A DNA stretch of 64,000 nucleotides from Glossina fuscipes (taxonomy: Eukaryota > Arthropoda > Insecta > Diptera > Glossinidae): positions 5,348,666 through 5,412,665 of the forward strand of contig NW_023998455.1 in assembly GCF_014805625.2 (NCBI RefSeq). Direction: 5' to 3'. The notes under the pieces were generated by a model. The model did no database searches. It saw only the letters and a program-made list of their open reading frames with translations, and was not told the origin of the DNA. Numbering within the stretch: the first letter of the stretch is position 1; every line of letters begins with the position of its first letter. The position numbers and the translations under genes were made by a program. Of the stretch, positions 4,862-54,037 are shown piece by piece.

Positions 4862-6924
4862 GGAAATACCGTAAAAAAATTCTATTAAACATAGAGAGCT
4901 AAAGATCACAATTCATTTTAAAACAAATCTTAGACATTCGTTATCTAGAGTCAATGTTAGCTGATAGACGGTGTGCTAGTAAGCCGACGTAACTCTTTTT
5001 ATATAAATTACTTGTGTAAATTAGAACAGGGTCACTAAAATTGTTCATTATTTTCAAAGCGTTCGAAAACATATATACATATATATGCTCCATTTTTCTA
5101 TTGTTCCAATTTTATTTCCTTTACAATGAACGTTCAATGAAAACGTCCTTCCTCTTTAAAACTACATAATATTTTTGCACTTTTTACTAATTGCGTTCGG
5201 CGACTGTCAAAATCAACTTGTATCGAAACTTTGCTAACAAAATCCGCTTCTCATCTTTGAAACTAAAGGCGATTTTCAAGTATATGGTCCAGTTCCAAAA
5301 GCGATTTGCCAAAAGTAGAAGAGGAGACGAAGTGAAATTTCAATTCGCGTATCGAAAATTTCAATCCAACGTAAATCGGCGGAAAGCTCCATGGACGCAT
5401 GGACCGACGTCAAACCGGTACATATGCGCCCTCTTTGGCATCCCTAATTCGATTTTTATACTATAGGCTTCGATAAAATTAGGCAACGCATGAATATACG
5501 TAAGGGAGCAACAAAAACGTGACCGTTTTATCCCTGTTAGTTAATTTACTATCATTTAATATATTTGTTACAAATTTTCTGCTCAGCTCCATAAGCAAGT
5601 GAAGCTCGAACACGTATAGAAATGAACAGATTTTTATTAAAATGCACATTCAGAAAGTTTCCCGTTCGACTATAATTTTTTACGCCTATGTGAGGAATTA
5701 TCGTGAAAACACTTTAGTTATTCTTTTTCAATTTTGTAGCCCTGACCGCCATCGTAGCACTTATGCAATATTTCTTCTTAATTGTCTGGACTGCAAAAAG
5801 TCTTCAATTGTTGTTGGGTCTTTAGGATCTTTGTGGTTTGGAAGCCTGTTAATCACTTCTAAACGCTTTGCCTCAATCGAGCAATCGAGTTAATGACACT
5901 TGTGGACGAGTTGTGGGAAAATTTTTGCAAAATTTGAATTCAATTTCATTTTATGTTGCCGAAAGAAGTTTTACAACATTTTTTTTAACTACCTACGCGC
6001 TGTTTCTCATCTTTAGAAAGCACTATCCTATAGTTTCATAATTGAGTTAGTTCTGCATGCCTGTCGTGATTCGAAAGCTATGTATTGGGGAAAACGGAAA
6101 GAATTATTTTCTTGACTTCTTATGGAATGTGGCAGACTATAAATTCTTTGATTGCTCTATAACTAACGTTCTACGGGCCTTTTAACCACTCAGCCATAAT
6201 AAGGTATTAAGTCAACGGAGATGTGTTGATCTCTGCGACTGTCTGTTTTCCCCGAATTTACTTAGCAAAATATTGAGCTTAAATTCAAGTGCGGAAATTA
6301 AATGTTAAGACGGATGGTGTCAATTCTCAGCCGATTCGAAAAATTTGTGAACAGAATCGATAAGTGCATTCAAGATCGAATTTGGCTTAATCTCTGATCC
6401 AAATGCTACAAATGATTTGAAAAGACCCGACAAACTTATAAATTTGACCCAAATATTACAAATGATGTCGAGTTTAAGTTGATTATGACTATTTTTTTTT
6501 TTTTTTTTTATTGTGGACGCATCGATGAACGACGTCGGCTCGCCGAATGGATTGAAATGACTTATTAGCTCACGCACGAGATAAAGTCCTTCGGCGGTCC
6601 TTCGATGTTTTCCCACCTAAAGCAAAAAAAAAAAAAAAATACTTGTATGTAAATATTTCCATCCATCTATTTACACATACTTGTCCCAATTACATATTGA
6701 TTTGTCAATGAAATCCAACATTCATTCATTGAAAATGGAGGTTATATGAATAAATGCTTTCAACCTAATCATAGCTTTTAAGCTAATGAGGATTTTAATT
6801 TAACATCACTTTTAGAAAAAAATCATTTTGTATACATAATTTATTGTTGCATCGACTACATGCCGACTATTATCGGAAAATTAATGAGCCAGCAAAAGAA
6901 AAAAATTAACCCAAAAAAACAGGT

Positions 6925-17200: not shown

Positions 17201-20200
17201 TGGTGAAGTTTAAAGTGTTACGCCAACTGAAAACGTAACCTATATTAGATGGAGTTGTGGCCGCTATACCACCTACACTAGTGCTAGAGCCAGGGGCACT
17301 ACTCGACGCTGAAGCTACTCCTCCCATTTCGCTCGCTATAGTCCTTTCCAAAGATATGCTAACAGTAGACAACAAATTGCCAGTAATTTCATTGCTTGAA
17401 CTTGCTGGAATTTGTACGTTATCAGTGGGAGTGGCATTTCCTTCCGATGCCATTGAAGATGCACCGTTCGCTTCGTCACTGTTACTATACTTCTTAGTAT
17501 AGAACTTCATTAAATCATTGATGTCATCTGGAAGTAATGCAAATAAAAAAAAAAACACATTTTTCTTTATTTTTTAATCCTCCTTTATGTTTCGCCTTCT
17601 TCCCCCATTCATGCTTACCATTGCATTCGAAGGTGTTGCAATTCCTCTGCTCTATATTGTAACCTTCGCAGGACATGGTAGAAAATGTTTTTGTTGTTTT
17701 GTGACGTTTACGTTTACGTGCATTTTTCCTGTTTGTTGTGGTGCCACTGCTAGTAGACGATGACAACATATCTGTGTTGGGAGTTGATAGCGATTGCAGT
17801 TCCTCTTGACTTTCACTATTTAAATGTGCTTCAAATAAACGCATTGCTTCCAGTTCTCCATCATTTTGCTCCCTCTGTACTCCCTGGTCCTCAACAAAGC
17901 CGTGTTGTTTTTGCTGTCGTTGTTGTTGGACCTTAACATCACTTAAACGTGATTTACTTTTCACTGGTTCTATAATGTGAAATAGTGATGATGCCGTATC
18001 CTCGCCGCTTGCCCATTTCAGTAATTTTAACTTGTTGTTCGTTGACAACATATCCGTATTCGCAACATGTTGGTCATGATGTAAAATATCATCAGTATTA
18101 CTAGTAGCGTTAACACTGATGATGCCAGAAAATGCAGAAAATTCTTGTTGTATTGAGTCTGCCACAATTTCCGATTTTCTCATAACAACATTATTTGCCA
18201 ACTCCCGCATTAAATTTCGCCCATTCATTCTTATTTCGCTAGCATCGTTACCGTCCTCGTGCTCGCCATCATCAATTGAGAGGTCATCGTTTTCAGTGAT
18301 TTGTTGTTGCTCGCTAAACACGGCATCGTCTTCGAAAACCAAGCTATCATTTGCGTCTCCTTTATCGGCATTCATATTGATTGCTTTATAATGCTCCATA
18401 TTCAAATCAACCATTGGATTATCCAAGAGGCAACGACGAAAACGTTGTTGTACTCCTTTGCCGCATGCCACACTACATACCGTAAAATCACTCCAGTCAT
18501 CCCAACCTAGATAATTATGACACGTGCATGGAATACATACAAAAAAGAAAGCGCAAAAAATAAAAGCAAAGACACGTTTTAAATGACATGTTCCACCTGA
18601 TGCTGACGTCGCTGCAGAATAAGTTAATCTGAATTAGTTCACATTCACGCTTGCATGTCGATGATTGTATTAATGATAAAGCGGTTAATTTATAATCAGG
18701 GAGTTACTTTCCTTTATTACGTCTGTTTCTTTTTCGTTACTTGTAACAATTTTACATATTCTCCTTTTTGCTATCAATGAATTACGTGAGCGGTTTGTCG
18801 ATATAGGAAATTATGATAGAAAAAATCATATTTTCATAGCGAAATAGTAAAAGTTTGTTCGTATACCTTGTTTCTATGGCGTCTCAGATTGCTTGCTAAC
18901 ATACTTATACAGTTTAGGGCTAACTTGATGACTCTAAAAAGTAGTGATCCCATTTATTTTATAATTATGGAGTAACATAAGAACAAAAAGCATTCTTTTA
19001 AAAAATCTTCAAAAAAATATGAGAGAAAGAATTTCAATTTGATTGAGTGATTTTATTTTTATGTGCGTAATAAAAGCTAGACGGATTTTAGGAGTTCTAT
19101 AAATTAGGTAGTCCTTGCGTACCTTAGAGAGCAAAATAAATTATTGACTACAGAAATTGCCACATTCTGTAAACAAACTCTTCTGCTTTCAGCTTTAAAA
19201 AAAGGCGATTCGTCTTAAATTGAATTTCTTCTTATCCATCATTTCTTATTTTCACTGCTTACTGCCAACAAAGTACAAAAGGACTACGTTACATCAAAAA
19301 TAAATGCGAGTTCTTTAAACCTTATATTTGGTACACGCGTGGGCATAATTCCTTTTTTCTCGCTAGTTGGCGAATTTAACATAATGCGACCTGAGGGCTT
19401 AAAATTTAAAATTAAACCTACTTTTTTTGTGGGAAACTTGAGGCTGCAATCGTTATGTTAAGAGTTAGACATGTAGGAGTACGGAATTATATGAATTCCT
19501 TTGGTTGTTTTAATCAAAACGTAAACAAGGTGATCACGTAAGAGCTATACAAATACATTATATAAGAGTATCATGTAGTCCACGCTTTTCTTCAGACTCC
19601 CACCAAACTATGCGAAATAGACAAGCGTGCAACGTATTGAAATTTCTAAACCTTATTATGAATACGATGAACGCATTTCGGCTGTGTTTTATACATTTTG
19701 TTGGAAGCTATATAAGGAAAGTTTTTCCTTTCCCAATAAACTTTACGAACATAAAAATTACCCTTAAAGTAGTGTTTGTGAGATGAAAAGGGCAGTGTGA
19801 ATAGTGAAAATGGCCTTGCCATTACCTTCAGTGGAGAACGCCATAGAGAGAAACATGCTTGCAGATTTGTCGTGATACGAATTAAACGATATTGAATTAG
19901 ATAATATGTGAGACATCTCGTGACACAATCAATGTACTAACGAAAACGTGCAATGACCGCATAGTATCCAAAATCACGTGATAAAGAAGATAAATTTCCT
20001 TCTGTGGAGTTATGGCTTAGTCCAATACACTCCAGACTCTCCATAATCTTATTTTCCACGATTGGCCGTGCTATTGGTGAAATAAAGGCAGAGAAGAAAA
20101 ATTGGTGTTTCAGAAACGAATTTTTGCAAAAATCCAGTAGCGGTCATAAACCAATGTTGGAATAAAAAAAAAATCTTACATCCTATGATGTCTTCTGTCG

Positions 20201-44198: not shown

Positions 44199-44371
44199 TT
44201 ATTATTATTATTATTAATTTCGCCAGAGAAATAAATTCTAAGACTAAGCTCTTAAAAGCATTAGCATCTAAAGCTATCGGCTTTTATTAAAAACTCTACC
44301 GCACTTGAGGTTCGAACCCACGACCATTGACTTGCTAGTCGAGATTCCTCGCCCTCGGCTACTCAGGCGAA
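44199..44371 (-). mobile_element. tRNA-derived SINE with 13-bp target-site duplication
   Basis: On the minus strand this copy has the tRNA-like head, a B box GGTTCGAACCT-like segment, the body, and an (AAT)n tail at its low-coordinate end. It is flanked on both sides by the same 13 bases TTAGTCGATTTTA (44186-44198 and 44372-44384). The perfect duplication fixes both ends and indicates a relatively recent LINE-mediated insertion. Confidence 0.88.
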
Positions 44372-44384
44372 TTAGTCGATTTTA

Positions 44385-46450
44385 ACTTCTGCTAAATATA
44401 AGGCGGTCATGCGAACGAATGGATGCTGAATAATAACAATTTCTTCTCTATAAAGGCACATGTGATCACTTACAACTTTGCGTGAGTATGGGTGATTTTT
44501 TCCAATTTTATACGTGGAATGGTAGGGACCTCCATAAAGTAAATGTAGATGAAATTTTAAAGCACTGTCTTTCATAATTTATGAGTAATGAGCTTAGAGA
44601 ACCATATTTTGTAGAAGTTGATATGAGATTTTAAAAATCTTCCACTATTATGCGATGAAACATCAGAAAATTTTTAAGCTCAGTAGCGTTTTAGTGTTAA
44701 TAACTTTGACTTTGTTGACTATTCACTGTTGACTGCTTATCACTGACTGTTTCTTGATTTATTTGCAAATGCTTATAACTTAACTAAACTAAACTGAAGT
44801 TCTTTGTGCTTACGCTAATACATTTGGTAGATCAAGGTTATCTTCCTAGTTTAGATTAGTGGATAAATTAAGTTATAACTAAAGTTACATTGCATTAGGT
44901 TGCGTTAAGCTAAGTTATGATAATAAAAGCAAGAAATATGTAGAGCTTGCAGCTGTGAAACTAAATGAATAGAGTTACGGGATTTTCTTCACAATTGTAG
45001 GCCATAGGTCAAGATGGGTAGGAAGATACTCTTGTATAAAATGCCTTTATTCCTTAGATTGAGTACGTACCCTCCAATACAGTTTTCTCAATAGGGCAAA
45101 ATTCAACACATTTCGATTCAAAATGAAGTCTTCCATCTTCTTTTCACATCACTTTAGTTCCCACCACATATCCCCCCGCTATATCTACTCCCACCATCTT
45201 TAAGAATTAATGTATTTTAAATCCAATTTTATTGATTTCCTCCTTAGAAACGAATCGAAGGAAAGATTTCTACATGATATGATCGTGTGCTATACAAGGA
45301 ATGTCTTAAGCTATTGACGTTTATTGTTTTGCTAAAAGACCAAACATTGGGCACAATTGTAAACCTTAAGAGTAACCGCCACACTGTGTTTGTATATTCT
45401 GCTAGACCGGAGAGTTAATTCAAATAATTCTCTTGCAATGCAATATTCATGTGAAAACCTTCAGAAAATACATAATTCAGCGAATAAGATATTGACACGG
45501 TTGCCGTCAATAAAAGATGCTTAAGATTCTATTCCGAGCTTGTCTTAAAAAATTCTTTTTTTTTTCTTAAATTTTTTCTTTAGTAAAAGTACGAAAATTT
45601 ATGAAATGCTTTGACGATTTAACTAATATTTAATAATTTATTAAATATCGTTCATTTACTTGAGAATTTTATCGAAGTTCATTTAAAAAAGTAAAAACTC
45701 ATTATTCGAACGGATCTATGCACACAATATATGCCTGAGTTGGCAATTGTTAGACGGGTATCCTTAACTAGTTTGTCTGCCGAAAAAATTAACCTACAAA
45801 TAAATTTTGGTAACTTATTGTCAGATTTTACTCCTGCTAGGACTGTAATTGTCCTTATAACCGCACGCTTGAGCGTACATACAACAGAATTCTCTAGGAG
45901 AAAACCTCTGGCGAAATGAACTTGTAGATCTCAAAAGTAGTTTCCATTTTTTGGAGCTCCCGGCCAAATGTACGTGTCCAGGCAGTTCCCAAGATGAAAG
46001 AAAAGTTTCCATTCGTGCAATACCAAGAAGACCGGGAAATACAAACAAAGGAAATCTCGTAGGAACTTACGTACGTGCGATGCCCTCTTACCTAGGTTTA
46101 CCTAGCATATCTTTGTATTCTACTTTCATATATAGATATTGCATGGATTCTGTAATAAAAATTGAACGAAAAACGAAATAAAACTCGTAACTTGAAAAAT
46201 GTGGGAACCATTATAGAAGAATAGAAAGAAGAAGAAGAAAATGCAATCCATGGGATGCATAAGCACGATGTATCCAATTCTTCCCGCACAGTAAAAACTT
46301 ACTTACTATCAAGATCATCCTCCGTTAACTAACGTTGCATAATTACGAAATTCGTTGCCATAAATTATCAAATAAATATTTAATCCAAATGGGCTTGGAA
46401 CATGTTTGAAATGCTTTTTATTCATAAAATTAATTAATATCTCGTAATTA
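44385..46450. other. Intergenic DNA without a recognisable gene
   Basis: Nothing with coding support is seen. The segment is AT-rich, with repeated TTAAGT/TAACTAA-like words near 44770-44920 and no recognisable element. Confidence 0.5.
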
Positions 46451-46787: not shown

Positions 46788-46879
46788 TTATAGAAAGATG
46801 TTCACGGTTTCAGGCTGGTCCATAGGCCATGGCTGATAATAATAGGAGGGCGCCAGCCCGTATGGAAGCGGTGGTGATG
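46788..46879 (-). CDS. Gene B terminal exon
   Basis: Acceptor CAACGTTAG after a pyrimidine-containing stretch. The exon encodes ASPPLPYGLAPSYYYQPWP followed by MDQPETVNIFL and a TAA stop. It is aromatic- and proline-rich. Confidence 0.7.
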
Positions 46880-49800
46880 CTAACGTTGATGCATTGTAGT
46901 GCCATGTAAAGAGACAAATACAAATTAGATAATGCTTAGCTTTTTTTGAAAGACATAAGAAAACTTTTTTCGTCGAACATAATCTGCATGTACCTTGCAT
47001 GGCTACCGCAGTTTGTGCTCCTGGTCCAAAAATAGTTGCGGTATGTAGTGTTGCAAAGCAAAGAAAAAAACTTCAATTAGTTAACTCACTCAACTTCCTC
47101 TTCGGATACAATAAATATATAAAAATAAGAAAAGTATTTTGGCGCGACAAGACCATACTTGCCTTGGGGAGATGGAACGTTCATCGATATTGGCTCTGAT
47201 GTGGGTAACAAGTAGTGTTTGCAGGTAAAGAATTACGGGTAAGTGATTTAATAAAGTTATTTTCATGCAACACAATTACACATACCTCGAGTAGTTGCCG
47301 CAATTAGTTGTTTGGGTGCTAGAATGGATGATGCATGCGGATGGTTGTCGTGTAACGAAACAAACTCAAATCAATTAAAGCTCATCTTTGTTGTGCAGAT
47401 ATAATAAATATATAATAATAAAAATAAAAGTGTTTTGATGCGACAAGACCGCACTTGCCTTGTGGAAGTGGAACGGTCGTCCATTTTGACTCTGAGGTTG
47501 GTAATACGAAATTTTTCATGTAAAGAAGTATAGATAAATGATATAATAAAATTGTCTTCGTGCAACACAATTACACATACCTCGAATAGGTGTCACATCT
47601 TGAACAGGTGATGCAGTTATTTCTTTGAGTGCTAATGCTAATAAATATAAATCAATTAAAACTCATCTTCTTTGACAAATACGATAAAAGTGTTTTTGTG
47701 CAACACAATTACACATACCTCGAATAGGTGTCACATCTTGAACAGGTGATGCACTTATTTCTTTGAGTGCTAATGCTAATAAATATAAATCAATTAAAAC
47801 TCATCTCCTTTGACAAATACGATAAAAGTGTTTTCGTGCAACACAATTGCATGTACCTTTTGACTGTTCCTCAGCTTTGTGCTTCCGAGTCGCTATAATT
47901 CGTTTTTCCACTAGCGCAGTCAAATCTATATATATAGCCGGTATAAGTGATTTTCTTACAATAAAAGGCGAACAGTACTGATACATACACTTTGGTAATT
48001 TTCCATGATTCCATTTATAAAATCCCGGCTTTTTTCCTTCTAAATTAAACCAATAACAACCTATATTTTTTACGCATATTAGTTTTTCACCTTAGAAGAC
48101 AATTAACACAAATGCATACCTGGGGAACCTTTTGTACTTTTTTTACCATGTGAAACGTAGTAGCCATCTTCGTTATAATATATTTTTTTCACGCAATTCA
48201 TTTCTATAATTATTGACAGACATAATAAAATATTTTTTCCGAGCAACAGTAGCGTAAATAAGTTTTTCCTAATAAAACAGAAATTGCATTAAAACTTACC
48301 TTCATCCCATTGCCAGGTAAATTTGTAATCTGTAAAGTTTTAAAAATAAGTTTTTTTCGTCATTACCCAATCAGCACGAATGTATTACAAACCTTTCACT
48401 CGTCCATGTTTCCATTGCAAATAATAATTAGATCCCGGCGGTCCGGGTATGGAACAAGGATCTAAATGTTATTATAAGCCAACATATGCTTTTGAAGTTG
48501 AATGAGCGAGAATACATACCATTTGGTTTGATTTGATTTCGTGGCTTTTGGATATACTTTCCCAAATGCGGGAGATTTTCCGGTCCCCATATGTACGCAC
48601 AAGCTGTTTTTGGCGAAGTAGATACAGAATTTTAGAATGTTTTAGGACATGGTAATATAAAACTATTCAAAAATTTACAAATATAATTATTTGTAGAGGA
48701 ACTTTTTGTTTTATATTGAGAAACACAAGGCAATTTGAATGATGCCCAACAAAGTAAGTAAGTTAAGAGTAACTCAATGATCAGAAATGCTTACCAACTT
48801 TATATGCAGTCGAAGTTTTCAGAAAAATCAAATTAACGATGAACCGAACAATAGAAAAAACGAAAACATAAAATTTATAAATATATATATCACAGAAGAG
48901 AAACATCTTGACTGATATAAGAGAAGTTTTTCTATCAGAAATACTTACACCCTTCATACCCAGTCGAAGTTAACACAAATATGAAATTAACGACGAACCG
49001 AAATATATAAAAAAAAAACGAAAAAACACAAAATTTCATAAATAAAATATATCCCTGCTAGAATTTGAAGAGTACATCTTCTCCAATTTAAGATAACTTC
49101 TCTCAGAAAAATCCGATTATCAGAGATACTTACTCACTTTATATGCAGTCGAAGTTAGCAGCAACATCAAATTAGCGATGAATCGAGAAATAAAAAAAAT
49201 ACAAAAATTTTTTTAAATAAAATACATTTCTCGCGGAAATTTATTCCTATATTTTGATAAATGCGAGATAACTTATTTTAGATTAATTCGATTACGAGGA
49301 ATACTTACTTTCTTTACGTATGGTCGAAGTTAGCAAAAATATAAAATTCATGATGAATCGGAAAATATAAACACGAAAACATTAAATTTATAATAATAAT
49401 AATAACATTTGTGAACGACGTCTATGTATACATCTTGACTAACACAAGATAATTTGATTCTCTCGTTGTAATTCGGTTACCAAAAATACTTACCGTCTTT
49501 AGATGCAGTCGAGGTTAGCAGAAATATCAAATTAACGACGAACCAAAAAAAAAAAAACATTAAAATATCAATATTATGAATAAAATATGTTCTTGAACGG
49601 GAAGATAACTTCATTCAGAGTAACTCAATTACCAGCAATACTTACAGCCTTTATGTACGGTCGAAGTTAGCAGAAATATCAAATTAACGACGAACCAAAA
49701 AAAAATAAAAAAATAAAATATCAATATTATGAATAAAATACTTTCTTGAACGGGCTATATATACACATCTTGGCGAACACAAGATAACTTCATTCAGAGT

Positions 49801-52800
49801 AACTCGATTACAAGCAATACTTACGATCTTTATGTATGGTCGAAGTTAGCAGAAATATAAAATTCATGATGAACCAAAAAATAGAACAAACCAAAATTTA
49901 TAAATAAATATATTCCTGAATGAACTATATGTCTTAACCTTGGCTAATACAAGATAACTTCAGAGTAATTCGCTTATAAGAAATACTTACTTTCTTTGCA
50001 TGCATTTGAAGTTAGCAGGAATATCAAATTGATGGTGAATCGTAAAATAGGAAAACGGAAATATAAAATTTATACACAAAATAAAAAATAAATAAAACAA
50101 AACTCATAAATATATATATTGCCGAAAACAAGTTATTTCCACATAACGGAACAATTCGATTATCAGAAATACTTACCGTCTTTTTGGACAATCGAAGTTA
50201 GTAGAAATGTTAAATTGGATCGTGAAAACAAAAATAAGAAATAAATAAAACAAAATTCATAAACAAATATATTCTTGAAGGTAGTTTACGCGCACATCTT
50301 GGCTAATTTGAGATAAGTTGCTTGGGTATAATTCAATTACCAGATTACTTACCACCTTTATATGCAGTCGAAGTTAGCAGAAATATCAAATTAACAATGA
50401 ACCGAAAAATCGAAAAAAACGAAAACATAAAATTTAGAAAGGAAAATATTCGTGCAAGAACTTTATGTGTACATCTTGACTGATGTAAAACAACTTGTTT
50501 AAAATTAATTCGATTATCAGAAATACTTACGGTCTTTTTGGACAATCGAAGTTAGCAGAAATGTCAAATTGATGATGAAAACGGAAATGAGAAATAAATA
50601 AAACAAAATTCATCAATAAGGATAACCGTGAGAGAACATTTTGTGTAAATCTTGACTAATGTAAGATAACTTGTTTCAGTGTAATTCGATTATAAGAAAG
50701 ACTTACTCCCTTTTTACATGCATGTGAAGTTAGCAGAAGTTAGCAGAAATGTCAAATTGATTATAAACCATAAAATAGGAAAACGGATATAAACGATTTA
50801 TACATGAAATGAGAAATAAATAAAATAAAATTCATAAATAAATATATTCCTGAAGGAATCTTACGGGTACATCTTGACAAAAATCAGATAATTTGTTCCA
50901 GAGTAATTTGATTATCATATATACTTACACCCTATATATGCAGCCGAAGTTGGCCGAAGTATCAATTTAATGATGAATCGATTAATAAAAAAAATAAATA
51001 AATAAAAAGAAAACCCTTAATTTTATGTGGCATATCTCGATTAGTGCAATGAAGCTTGTTTCAAAGTGATTCGATTATAAGAAATACTTACTCCCTTTAC
51101 ATGCAGTCGAAGTTAGCAGATATATCAAATTAAGGATGAACAGAAAATAAGAAACGTAAACATAAAATGTATAAATAAATAAAAATATATTCCTGAAGGA
51201 AGTTTACGTGTACATCGTGATTGATATCGTATTTCACTCCGAGCAATTCGATTACCAAAAAGATATATCATATTAACGATTACCCGAAAAATAAACAAAA
51301 CATAAATATTAGAAATGAAAACATTGCTGAAGGAAGGTTATGTGCACGTCTTGACTGATGCAACATAACTTGTTTCAGAGTAATTCAATTATCAGAAATA
51401 CTTACACATTACTTCATATAAATTCGATGATATAAATATTAAAGAAAAATAAGAAAATTTATATACAAAAGGAACTTTATATGGACATCTTAGGTAATAC
51501 AAGACAACTTCTTTCAGAGGAATTCGATTATTAGAAATACTTACCCACTTAATATGCAGTCGAAAGTTGGAGAAATATCAAAATAATAATGGATCGAAAA
51601 ATAAAATAAAATTTATAAATATATGTAACCATGAAGGAACTTTATACATCTTGACAGATGCAAGAAAACATGCTTCAGAGTAATTCGATTATTAGAAATA
51701 CTTACTCCCTTCATATGCAGTCGAAGTTGGCGGAGATATCAATTTAACGACGAACCAAAAAATGAAAAACCAAAGAAAACGTGCAATGTGTAAATGAAAA
51801 TATTCCTTAACGAACTCTATGTGTACATATTAACTAATGCAACATAAGTTGTTTCAGAGTAATTCGATTATTAGAAATACTTACAATCTATGTATGCGTT
51901 CGAAGTTAGCAGAAATATCAAATTAACAATGACCCGGAAATTAAACAAAACACAAACATAAAATTTATAAATAAAAATATTTCTGAAGGACTTCAGGCGT
52001 TCATCTAGACAGATGCAAGATAACTCGTTTCAGAGTAAATCGATTATCAGAAATATTTACCATCTATGTATGCAGTCAAAGTTAGCAGAAATATCAAATT
52101 AACGATGACCCGAAAAATAGAAAAAACATAAACAAAATTTATAAATAAAAATATTTCTGAAGGACTTCGTGTGTTCATCTAGACTGATGCAAGATAACTT
52201 GTTTCAGAGTAAATCGGTTATCAGAAATATTTACCATCTTCGTATGCAGTCGAAGTTAGCAGAAATACCAAATTAACGATGACCCGAAAAATAGAAAAAA
52301 CGGAAGCAAAACTTATAAATAAAAATATTTCTGAAGGACTTCATGTGTTCAACTAGAGTGATGCAAGATAACTTGTTTCAGAGTAAATTGATTATCAGAA
52401 ATATTTACCATCTTCGTATGTAGTCGAAGTTAGCAGAAATATCAAATTAAGGATGACCCGAAAAATAGAAAAAACGGAAACAAAGTTTATAAATAAAAAT
52501 AATCCTGAAGGAACTTTATGTGTTCATCTTGCCAAATACAAGATAACTTGTTTCAGTGTATTTCGATTATAGAAATATGCTTACCCCCTTTATAAGCAGT
52601 CGAAGTTAATACAAATATCAAATCAACAATAAACCGAAAAATAAACGAAAACATAAAATTTATTAATAAAATATTCCTGAAGGGACTTGATGTGTACATC
52701 TTGACAAATGCAGAAATACTTACATTCTTTACATGCAGCCGAAATTAGCAGAAATATCCAATTGACGATTAATCGAAAAATAAACAAAACGAAAACATAA

Positions 52801-53172
52801 AATTTATAATTAAAAATATTCCTGGAGGGACTTGATTAACTAATACAAGATAACTTTGGTTCAGTGTAATTCGATTACCAGAAATACATACCAACTATAT
52901 ATGCAGCCGAAATTAGCAGAAATATCCAATTAACGATTAATCGAAAAATAAACAAAACGAAATTACAAAATTTATAAATAAAAATATTCCTGAAGTGGCT
53001 TGATGTGTACATCTTGACTAATACAAGATAACCTGTTTCAGTATAATTCGATTACCAGAAATACTTACCAGCTATATATGCAGTCGAGGTTAGCAGAAAT
53101 ATCAAATTAACGGTGAACCGAAATTAAACAAAACGAAAACATAAAATTTAGAAAGGAAGATATTCCTGAAGA

Positions 53173-53237
<65 letters not shown>

Positions 53238-54037
53238 TGATTAATATAAAATAATGTGTTTCAAGCCAAATCGATGACCAGAAATACTTACGGTCTTTAT
53301 ATGGAGTCGAGGTTAGCAGAGATATCAAATCAATGATTAATCGAAAAATAAACAAAACGGAAATATAAAATTTGTACATAAAATTATTCCTGAAGGACTT
53401 TATCTGTTCATCTTGATCGATGCAAGATAACTTGTTTCAGAGTAATTCGATTACCGCAAATACTTACGATCTTTGCATGCAGTCGAAGTTAGCAGAAATA
53501 TCAAATCAACAATGACCCGAAAAATAGAAAAAANNNNNNNNNNCAACAATGACCCGAAAAATAGAAAAAACGGAAACATAAAATTTGTAAATAAAAATTT
53601 TCCTGAAGGCTTTCATGTGTTCATCTTGATCGATGCCATATAACTTGTTTCGATTACCAAAAATACTTACACGCTTTATATGCAGTGGGTGTTAGCAGAA
53701 ATATCAGATTAATGAAGAAACGAAAAATAAACAAACAATAAAAGATAAATATGAATAAAATATATGCCTGAAGTATCTTCAAGTGCAAGTCTTGACAAAT
53801 ACAAGATAACTTGTTTCAGAGTAATTCGATGACCAGAAACACTTACCCGCTTTATATGCAGTCCAAGTTAGCAGAAAGGTCAAATTAACGGTGAACGGAA
53901 AAGTAAAATAAAAAAAAATATTATGAATGCAACAAATGCACAATATATATTGTCGTTTACCGGGAATACTTACCTCCTTGTGCAACCAGAAGCAATAATA
54001 CCATCAACTTAACAACAATTCGGAATATGTTTGACAT
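46788..54037 (-). CDS. Gene B: micro-exon secreted protein, all introns phase 1
   Basis: Fourteen exons join into 260 codons plus stop: 54037-53974, 48603-48520, 48461-48393, 48329-48300, 48203-48120, 48039-47989, 47925-47857, 47775-47719, 47637-47581, 47491-47459, 47318-47286, 47195-47163, 47020-46994, 46879-46788. Every junction splits a codon after its first base, and all twelve internal exons are multiples of three, so each can be skipped without a frameshift. Exon 1 is a clean signal peptide (VVKLMVLLLLVAQG). The first half of the mature part repeats a (Y/F)-x-W-x-H-G-(K/R)-like motif (YYLQWKHGR, FYKWNHGK). The second half is P/A/T/V-rich, ending in a Y/P/Q-rich tail. There are three cysteines. 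I recognise no family. A secreted, rapidly evolving effector- or gland-type protein is inference. Expression is unproven. Confidence 0.75.
46994..47020 (-). CDS. Gene B exon 13 (27-nt micro-exon)
   Basis: Acceptor TTTGGACCAG, donor CAAG|GTACAT. It encodes GAQTAVAMQ. Its distance from exon 12 (about 142 bases) matches that from exon 10 to exon 11, so it is the partner of exon 11 in a two-exon duplication. Confidence 0.62.
47163..47195 (-). CDS. Gene B exon 12 (33-nt micro-exon, GC donor)
   Basis: Acceptor CCCACATCAG, donor CAAG|GCAAGT. It encodes EPISMNVPSPQ. It is a diverged duplicate of exon 10, 296 bases away, with the same GC donor. Confidence 0.66.
47286..47318 (-). CDS. Gene B exon 11 (33-nt micro-exon)
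   Basis: Acceptor CATTCTAG, donor CGAG|GTATGT. It encodes APKQLIAATTR. The downstream intron starts like those after exons 8 and 9. Confidence 0.66.
47459..47491 (-). CDS. Gene B exon 10 (33-nt micro-exon, GC donor)
   Basis: Acceptor CCAACCTCAG, donor CAAG|GCAAGT (GC instead of GT). It encodes ESKWTTVPLPQ. It is paralogous to exon 12. Confidence 0.68.
47581..47637 (-). CDS. Gene B exon 9 (57 nt), duplicate of exon 8
   Basis: It encodes ALALKEITASPVQDVTPIR, one residue different from exon 8. Acceptor and donor are the same as in exon 8. Confidence 0.72.
47719..47775 (-). CDS. Gene B exon 8 (57 nt)
   Basis: Acceptor ATATTTATTAG, donor CGAG|GTATGT. It encodes ALALKEISASPVQDVTPIR. It is nearly identical to exon 9, 138 bases away, including intron sequence. 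Confidence 0.72.
47857..47925 (-). CDS. Gene B exon 7 (69 nt)
   Basis: Acceptor TATATATATAG, donor AAAG|GTACAT. It encodes LTALVEKRIIATRKHKAEEQ then SK, a charged, probably helical segment unlike its neighbours. Confidence 0.65.
47989..48039 (-). CDS. Gene B exon 6 (51 nt)
   Basis: Acceptor TTTAATTTAG, donor AAGT|GTATGT. It encodes EGKKPGFYKWNHGKLPK. The frame stays open through the 63-base intron into exon 7, so the intron could be retained without a stop; splicing is favoured by good GTATGT and ATATATAG sites. Confidence 0.65.
48120..48203 (-). CDS. Gene B exon 5 (84 nt)
   Basis: Acceptor AATTATAG, donor CCAG|GTATGC. It encodes EMNCVKKIYYNEDGYYVSHG then KKSTKGSP, a variant of the Y-x-x-x-H-G motif. 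Confidence 0.72.
48300..48329 (-). CDS. Gene B exon 4 (30-nt micro-exon)
   Basis: Acceptor ACTTTACAG, donor GAAG|GTAAGT. It encodes DYKFTWQWDE. It is flanked by introns of 63 and 96 bases. Confidence 0.72.
48393..48461 (-). CDS. Gene B exon 3 (69 nt)
   Basis: Acceptor ACATTTAG, donor AAAG|GTTTGT. It encodes DPCSIPGPPGSNYYLQWKHG then RVK, carrying the Y-x-W-x-H-G motif. The upstream intron is 58 bases. Confidence 0.75.
48520..48603 (-). CDS. Gene B exon 2 (84 nt)
   Basis: After CAAAAACAG, the exon runs to AAATG|GTATGT. With the leftover G of exon 1 it starts ACAYIWGPENLPHLGKY and ends NQIKPN. It would be the first exon of the mature peptide and the common partner of any alternative first exon. 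Confidence 0.75.
48949..49039 (-). CDS. Candidate alternative first exon of gene B (array unit near 48.95 kb)
   Basis: From an ATG the frame is open for 30 codons plus one base to a T|GTAAGT donor. It encodes an aromatic hydrophobic leader (MKFCVFSFF... IFVLTSTGYEG). The 3n+1 length fits exon 2 in phase. Transcription of this unit is unknown. Confidence 0.35.
49494..49560 (-). CDS. Candidate alternative first exon of gene B (array unit near 49.5 kb)
   Basis: ATG, 22 codons and one base to G|GTAAGT. The leader is MFFFFWFVVNLIFLLTSTAS followed by K and D. The start and frame depend on the exact length of a 13-base A/T run, so a sequencing length error would break it. Confidence 0.3.
50353..50428 (-). 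CDS. Candidate alternative first exon of gene B (array unit near 50.4 kb)
   Basis: ATG, 25 codons and one base to G|GTAAGT. The product begins MFSFFSIFRF and ends NLIFLLTSTAYKG. The length is correct for joining exon 2 in phase 1. Confidence 0.38.
52585..52654 (-). CDS. Candidate alternative first exon of gene B (array unit near 52.6 kb)
   Basis: ATG, 23 codons and one base to G|GTAAGC. The leader begins MFSFIFRFIVDLIF and ends STAYKG, with the same 3n+1 logic as the other candidates. Confidence 0.38.
53177..53235. repeat. (TA)n microsatellite within the exon array
   Basis: About 29 uninterrupted TA dinucleotides occupy the spacer of one array unit, where other units read TTATGTGTACATC. The tract lengthens that unit. 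Confidence 0.9.
53292..53379 (-). CDS. Candidate alternative first exon of gene B (array unit near 53.3 kb)
   Basis: ATG, 29 codons and one base to C|GTAAGT. It begins MYKFYISVLFIFRLII and ends TSTPYKD. It sits beside a long (TA)n tract that lies in the same unit's spacer. Confidence 0.35.
53534..53543. other. Assembly gap (10 N) inside the array
   Basis: Ten N bases interrupt the array. The roughly 28 bases left of the gap (CAACAATGACCCG through the following A-rich run) are repeated immediately right of it, so the contig ends overlap or a unit boundary was joined wrongly. The copy number of the array is therefore uncertain. Confidence 0.95.
53974..54037 (-). CDS. Gene B exon 1: signal peptide
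   Basis: The exon has an ATG, 21 codons and one base, ending AAGGAG|GTAAGT. It encodes MSNIFRIVVKLMVLLLLVAQG, a short basic n-region, a strong hydrophobic core and a small-residue cleavage region. It is the outermost unit of the array that fills intron 1 and the most signal-peptide-like of the copies. Confidence 0.75.

Follow-up and report, generated by a model that had tools for sequence, protein, structure and literature searches.

Candidate one-codon exons among tandem copies of a short intron in a Glossina fuscipes gene

The host gene and the repeat array in its first intron

A gene of 14 exons on the minus strand (Table 1) was rebuilt from splice signals within the window, by which we mean the whole stretch of 64,000 nucleotides of Glossina fuscipes DNA that was analysed; the model rests on sequence only. 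Exon 1 carries what was judged by eye to be a signal peptide, MSNIFRIVVKLMVLLLLVAQG. Every one of the 13 introns lies in phase 1, and the 12 internal exons, 27–84 nt long, are all multiples of three; this holds throughout exons 3–13, which are separated by phase-1 introns of 58–142 nt. The 13 acceptors of the model are all CAG or TAG, and the GC content of the coding sequence is 42%. Without the array described below, the predicted product has 267 residues and a hydrophobic start. A comparison of the joined 14-exon protein with Pfam returned no family above the cut-off, and one with the PDB gave a single chance-level match (E 0.72).

Several further features were noted along the way. Exons 8 and 9 with their introns (window 47546–47848) form a recent tandem duplicate with a period of 138 and 96% matches, and by eye other 3′ exons and introns of the gene resemble each other too. 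GC donors (GCAAGT) follow exons 10 and 12, at window 47458 and 47162 on the minus strand. Elsewhere in the window, long open frames on the minus strand between 17115 and 27899 possibly belong to one other gene, and one of them (17524–18633, minus strand) encodes a thrombospondin type 1 domain (PF00090, E 3.7e-6). At 44250–44400, GGGTTCGAACC adjoins TAA repeats; we take this sequence to be tRNA B-box-like, and the stretch may be a SINE. An Rfam scan of the window at the gathering threshold gave no matches.

Introns 2–13 measure 58–142 nt, whereas the apparent intron 1 spans 5370 nt, almost all of it an array of intron copies. Between exons 1 and 2, 29 tandem units bearing a donor-like site run along the minus strand from 53846 to 48794, spaced 150–190 bp apart in 22 of the 29 cases. 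A profile scan counted 27 units, and a motif search with alignment gave the 29 with a donor. The original prediction of about 29 donor-bearing units in this intron, made from the letters of the DNA, is thereby borne out, GTA being present in all 28 aligned units and the donor evolving at a rate of only 0.16. The pattern common to the intron copies has the appearance of splice signals: GTAAGTAT at the 5′ end, a TGCTAAC-like branch point and AAAG at the 3′ end. The intron copies are mostly about 170 nt long; read as separate copies, intron 1 falls into pieces of about 120–310 nt. In a 30th unit, near 51240–51300, acceptor, triplet and donor are all gone, apparently through one deletion event.

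Two local irregularities lie within the array. One unit contains a gap of 10 N (window 53534–53543) with an identical stretch of about 27 bases on either side; this has the look of an artefact of assembly and not of a genuine duplication. In one intron copy, a perfect TA microsatellite has expanded to 29.5 copies (window 53177–53235), leaving the splice signals untouched.

Table 1. Features of the host gene and of the array in its apparent first intron. All micro-exons are candidate exons, defined as the sequence between an AG and the next GT.
Feature	Position in window	Strand	Basis or remark
Exon 1	53974..54037	-	ATG and signal peptide; phase 1 end (..GGA G); splice and frame reading
Apparent intron 1	48604..53973	-	5370 nt, almost entirely array of intron copies
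One-codon exon CGG	53847..53849	-	AG-CGG-GTAAGT
One-codon exon CGT	53671..53673	-	AG-GT reading
One-codon exon ATC	53468..53470	-	AG-GT reading
One-codon exon ACC	53292..53294	-	AG-GT reading
One-codon exon CTG	53069..53071	-	AG-GT reading
One-codon exon TTG	52892..52894	-	AG-GT reading
One-codon exon AAT	52724..52726	-	AG-GT reading
One-codon exon GGG	52585..52587	-	AG-GT reading
One-codon exon ATG	52409..52411	-	AG-GT reading
One-codon exon ATG	52235..52237	-	AG-GT reading
One-codon exon ATG	52061..52063	-	AG-GT reading
One-codon exon ATT	51885..51887	-	AG-GT reading
One-codon exon GGA	51706..51708	-	AG-GT reading
One-codon exon TGG	51545..51547	-	AG-GT reading
Two-codon exon TAATGT	51406..51411	-	Unit 51405, core replaced
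30th-unit remnant	51238..51300 (approximate limits)	-	Sequence and alignment; acceptor, triplet, donor missing
One-codon exon GGA	51092..51094	-	AG-GT reading
One-codon exon GGT	50929..50931	-	AG-GT reading
One-codon exon GGA	50707..50709	-	AG-GT reading
One-codon exon ACC	50531..50533	-	AG-GT reading
One-codon exon GTG	50353..50355	-	AG-GT reading
One-codon exon ACG	50177..50179	-	AG-GT reading
One-codon exon AAA	49991..49993	-	AG-GT reading
One-codon exon ATC	49825..49827	-	AG-GT reading
One-codon exon GCT	49646..49648	-	AG-GT reading
One-codon exon ACG	49494..49496	-	AG-GT reading
One-codon exon AAA	49309..49311	-	AG-GT reading
One-codon exon TGA	49134..49136	-	Phase-1 reading across borders gives no stop
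One-codon exon GGT	48949..48951	-	AG-GT reading
One-codon exon TTG, last of array	48795..48797	-	AG-GT reading
Exon 2	48520..48603	-	84 nt, phase 1-1
Exons 3-14	46788..48461	-	Exon 14 ends in TAA; stop codon end at 46788

Conservation and variation within the units

Rates were estimated on a tree of 28 units aligned over 183 columns, exon 1 and unit 51405 being excluded. Among the slowly evolving positions are the donor's intronic bases, the first A in TGCTAAC and an AG standing three bases ahead of the next donor. This AG, like GTA, is present in 28 of 28 aligned units, and both evolve at the floor of the estimate (0.05) against a mean of 1.32 in the unit middle; mean rates are 0.16 for GTAAGT, 0.43 for the TGCTAAC region and 0.43–0.95 for the core segments. 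The three bases enclosed by AG and GT behave in the opposite manner, with rates of 4.0, 2.8 and 4.3, about 2.8-fold above the unit middle. By pairwise diversity they are the top three of all 183 columns; ordered by rate they come third, eighth and second, column 50 taking first place. Neither the invariant AG nor the hypervariable triplet between it and the donor had featured in the original prediction.

Simulation on the 28-unit tree at mid-unit rates gave one invariant column with P 0.077 and one column of triplet-like diversity with P 0.024. The five invariant columns of AG and GTA together have P of about 3e-6 (AG alone 0.006), and three columns as diverse as the triplet about 1.4e-5, in each case taking columns as independent and ignoring gene conversion between units. 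Further invariant columns occur at 15, 17, 55, 100, 114 and 155, so invariance by itself is not unique; what is unique is its position, at an AG and a GT that flank the most diverse bases. Length is preserved as well: none of 63 indel events falls within the 11 columns of AG-NNN-GTAAGT, where 6.1 would be expected at the mid-unit rate and 4.0 at the whole-unit rate, in an alignment without unit 51405, which has six bases between AG and GT. The triplets are also GC-rich (43 of 90 bases, 48%) relative to the unit middles (25%, p 4e-6) and the core (35%, p 0.015), and their composition is nearer to that of coding sequence, as represented by the coding part of the host gene, than either of these.

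Pairing of the array donors with U1 averages -8.2 kcal/mol (range -5.3 to -13.3), against -2.1 kcal/mol for the 3377 minus-strand GTs of the window, and the exon-side donor bases are poor, with A at -2 in 5 of 53 three-base exons. The array acceptor is weak, mostly AAG (24 of 29, the remainder TAG), while those of the gene model are CAG or TAG, and no pyrimidine tract lies between the branch point and the AG of the units.

Other possible signals in the units were tried and set aside. An internal exon starting from an upstream AG (CTTCAGG) was rejected on account of its G, which varies between units (column 79, pi 0.56). Triplets of the form NAG are absent from 53, with 4.3 expected from overall composition (P 0.012) and 1.8 by position (P 0.16), and this was not used as evidence. 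A 9-bp pairing of the donor side with the core, spotted by eye, showed no excess covariation and is not supported; nor was a consensus structure found within 36 aligned introns (21 from the window and 15 from paralogs, three rows of locus L011 lacking the first GTA and final G). An introner with a 3-bp target duplication was not adopted, for it predicts equal flanking triplets, yet neighbours mostly differ.

The 47-nt core in front of each donor (columns 126–172) took only 2 indel events, against 55 in 100 middle columns. Its conservation and its poverty in indels, which extend upstream of the branch point, are not fully explained by splice signals alone, and a kept reading frame would also fit them. 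In the phase of exon 1, the frame ahead of the donor is open for at least 18 codons in 27 of 29 units; it is closed right before the donor in units 51544 and 50706, and the open stretch of unit 51405 is not the core, which leaves 26 open cores, as had been predicted. All 25 gap-free cores are free of stops, against an expectation of 2.8 with stops if the majority core were substituted at random (P = 0.047), and variability at codon position 3 slightly exceeds that at positions 1 and 2 (permutation p = 0.053), results that weakly favour the core frame. The dN/dS check that had been proposed for the units, run here as pN/pS, gave a ratio of 0.83 over 25 units, inside a null of 0.71 ± 0.16 from column permutation, which destroys the frame and keeps the variation. 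Units 51544, 51405, 50706 and 50176, whose cores are shifted, replaced or carry an insertion, were excluded from it. The core frame thus shows no amino-acid constraint.

The units had been taken for copies of the signal-peptide exon. In the right register the core does marginally resemble exon 1 (shuffle p = 0.05 for its coding part, 0.02 for the bases past the donor), and the units may be related to the end of exon 1; as signal-peptide exons they fare poorly, the open stretch before the donor lacking an in-frame ATG in 16 of 29. The units do not evolve evenly, as inert satellite DNA would, core and donor being slower than the unit middle. Coding use, suggested in the original prediction, stays plausible, and would apply more probably to the triplet enclosed by AG and GT than to the core. 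In the frame proposed for the core, the AG occupies codon position 3 and the following position 1, so coding by the core would not explain its invariance, whereas use as an acceptor would.

Related arrays elsewhere in the genome

Paralogous arrays were sought in the same genome, of 366 Mb in 709 contigs, using a unit profile in which the AG, triplet and donor columns were masked. This profile identified 22 array units at five loci (L009 6, L010 11, L011 3, L018 1, L031 1). All 22 possess the AG and a donor, GT in 21 and GC in one (L009 near 3668), with one unit a base off register. A sixth locus, L037, was located through DNA similarity, and with units recognised by eye the paralog arrays comprise 29 units (L009 7, L010 12, L011 4, L018 2, L031 2, L037 2), counts that are lower bounds because runs of N interrupt several arrays and scoring in the genome search extended to its best candidates only. 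The AG is present in 27 of these 29 units and GT or GC in all 29, and the distance from AG to donor is 3 or 6 in 27 of 27; the 27 units with the AG were checked by pattern, the others by reading. The AG is missing near 3850 in L009 and near 988 in L037, the latter unit perhaps being an array edge. Across the family, visible array size ranges from 2 units in L031 to 29 in the window, with at least 12 in L010.

The triplets of the paralog units repeat the behaviour seen in the window. G or C makes up 41 of their 87 bases, compared with 27% of the paralog unit middles (p 8e-5), and N1, N2 and N3 take three of the top four places for diversity among 51 columns in 25 paralog units with three-base exons, a set that excludes two six-base units and two without the AG, and in which the invariance of the AG holds by construction, the AG being part of the alignment anchor. 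The last two bases of the six-base exon of L031 are themselves AG, which leaves the acceptor of that exon ambiguous.

Two of the loci are recognisable, by sequence similarity, as paralogous genes: exon 3, which reads DPCSIPGPPGSNYYLQWKHG in the window, has counterparts DPCTLPGPEGTNYYLKWNHG in L011 (E 1e-6) and DPCAKSGPTGAGYYLLWNHG in L031 (E 2e-4). In L010, MTNIFLFVTLLILSLLPVSQG (E 0.018) is likely a homologue of exon 1. Outside arrays, the profile matched L012, which reads AG ACT GTAAGT, and L013, where the AG is present and part of the donor is lost; by eye their exon 1 frames are broken, and both look like pseudogenes. A weak-scoring match on the opposite strand of L012 has the AG and no GT. 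A further small match lies on contig C31 near 9229093. In L011, a small contig, a long stretch at 5100–6550, upstream of the paralog array and where exon 1 would be expected, appears coding-like by eye and is possibly a transposable element.

A probable run of one-codon exons and its nearest relatives

We consider it probable, at roughly 60%, that the apparent intron 1 consists of about 29 one-codon exons in succession, set between copies of one intron, and is not a single intron holding decayed exon copies. About 30 copies of a single short intron would then separate 29 micro-exons, all of three bases except one of six, and the array would encode a variable peptide residue by residue. The micro-exons sit in phase 1, so that each inclusion would add one residue (the six-base exon two) and leave the frame intact; inclusion of all would place 30 extra residues between the signal peptide and exon 2. 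Splicing could proceed by intron definition, the spliceosome removing the copies successively and leaving one codon per step. With introns 2–13 as short as they are, an intron 1 of 5.4 kb is an outlier that the one-codon-exon model removes. The array probably grew as an intron-exon junction, perhaps that at the end of exon 1, was duplicated in tandem, the three exonic bases afterwards diversifying faster than the surrounding intron.

Joined in order in phase 1, the triplets read ...VAQG AAYHPVEWDDDDWMVMWRWNRDENRYEMRF ACAYIWGPE... and contain no stop. Over all contiguous blocks, stops number 0 in 50 codons in phase 1, 2 in 57 in phase 0 and 7 in 50 in phase 2. Shuffled orders are stop-free in 44% of cases for the window and in 20% for all blocks, and given the latter figure the open phase-1 frame is consistent with translation, not proof of it. 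Of 406 possible triplet pairs, 12 would give rise to a stop where they meet, and the others would not. One may go further and suppose that the array is a diversity generator, in which varying subsets of the roughly 29 one-codon exons, nearly all of them in frame, let a single gene for a secreted protein yield very many N-terminal peptides, with positive selection acting on the triplets and the shared intron being kept. We put this forward as a tentative extension that may well go too far.

Other readings assign the same signals a different role or none. The units could be splice-competent decoys or ratchets that regulate the joining of exons 1 and 2, for example through recursive splicing or intron retention, with the triplets usually skipped and the peptide without a role. 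Conserved GT, branch point and AG are all accounted for by such decoys, and a product skipping every triplet would also be in frame; nevertheless, the reading seems unlikely to us, as it leaves unexplained both the top diversity and the higher GC of the triplets, in window and paralogs alike, and an AG-to-donor length fixed at 3 or 6 in 29 window units and the 27 paralog units with the AG. An inert satellite derived from the end of exon 1, with splice-like motifs as leftovers, would suit the marginal kinship of core and exon 1, the unconstrained core frame and the occurrence of single-unit, pseudogene-like copies (L012 and L013). It is distinctly improbable in view of an AG and GTA at the rate floor next to a triplet well above the unit middle, a pattern repeated in the paralogs, the more diverged L031 included.

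Two readings in which the units are alternatives to one another appear much less probable. In clusters of the Dscam type, conserved RNA pairing joins selector and docking sites. A comparable mutually exclusive choice, with one triplet per mRNA altering the residues right after the signal peptide, has in its favour that a single triplet inserted here cannot introduce a stop, the resulting codons being of the forms GNN and NCT. Against it, no consensus fold emerged from the 36 aligned introns, the one 9-bp helix tried failed, and one residue per choice generates little diversity; we think this reading very improbable. Alternative first exons offering interchangeable signal peptides, one of the two readings originally proposed for the units, have in their favour the 26 cores open in the phase of exon 1 with a hydrophobic reading, the lack of stops in gap-free cores and the slight excess of variation at codon position 3. 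Yet T-rich intron ends naturally read as hydrophobic residues, which gives such a reading anyway, more than half of the units have no in-frame ATG, pN/pS is not below its permuted null, and the AG three bases before the donor is left without a role. This proposal now has hardly any probability in our estimate.

If the triplets are spliced in, no longer run of one-codon exons is known to us, and they would constitute a natural test of the spliceosome on exons too short for exon definition. The one-codon-exon model, if true, would equally offer a test of intron birth via repeated duplication of an exon-intron junction, and the variable part of the protein would likely be missed by gene predictors, the sequence resembling one 5.4-kb intron. 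It makes a clean prediction, namely a specific 30-residue string joining the signal peptide and exon 2.

Recursive splicing uses ratchet points, which leave zero bases and occur in very long introns. The units are like ratchet points in that a branch point and AG are followed immediately by a donor, making stepwise removal of the intron possible; unlike them, the array would leave three bases, in steps of mostly about 170 nt. Likened by gene structure alone, as read here from DNA, the host gene would find its nearest structural class in the micro-exon genes (MEGs) of Schistosoma. According to the available part of one account, these possess a signal-peptide exon and many short exons, mostly multiples of three, encode secreted proteins with splice variants, and are difficult for automatic annotation to trace (PMC10526429). 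Their exons are mostly 15 bp, with a minimum of 6 bp given in the text and a range of 3–81 bp in the abstract, and their introns extend from 100 to almost 5000 bp (same source, available part; PMC10526429). The host gene shares with them a 5′ signal-peptide exon (by eye), short internal exons of 3n length and a single intron phase, features that its 12 internal exons show before any one-codon exon is counted. It differs in that its candidate one-codon exons are consecutive, its introns are short and recognisable copies of each other, and the host is an insect.

A second comparison, also by structure alone, is with the bicycle and megacycle genes of aphids, fast-evolving genes with many small single-phase internal exons, one of them with more than 100 micro-exons, as described in the portion of the report available (PMC9168663). 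The host gene is likewise an insect gene whose internal exons are numerous, small and uniform in phase, but all of its 13 introns are in phase 1, whereas bicycle exons are almost all in phase 2; one-codon exons and homologous introns go unmentioned in that portion (PMC9168663). Single 3-nt micro-exons are cited for Drosophila troponin T and mouse Ncam in the accessible part of PMC8042270. There too, three bases add or remove one residue, and the existence of such exons in flies means that one-codon-exon splicing is possible, but they are isolated, while the array here is a run of 29 (PMC8042270, same part). A literature search, conducted mostly at the level of titles and the beginnings of abstracts, turned up no earlier account of one-codon exons in a run among the papers listed. 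For the origin of the array, the closest precedent in what was available of PMC4974935 is intron gain through tandem duplication in one potato gene. In both cases a duplicated segment supplies new splice sites; unlike in that one-gene case, the process here would have run dozens of times (PMC4974935, available part).
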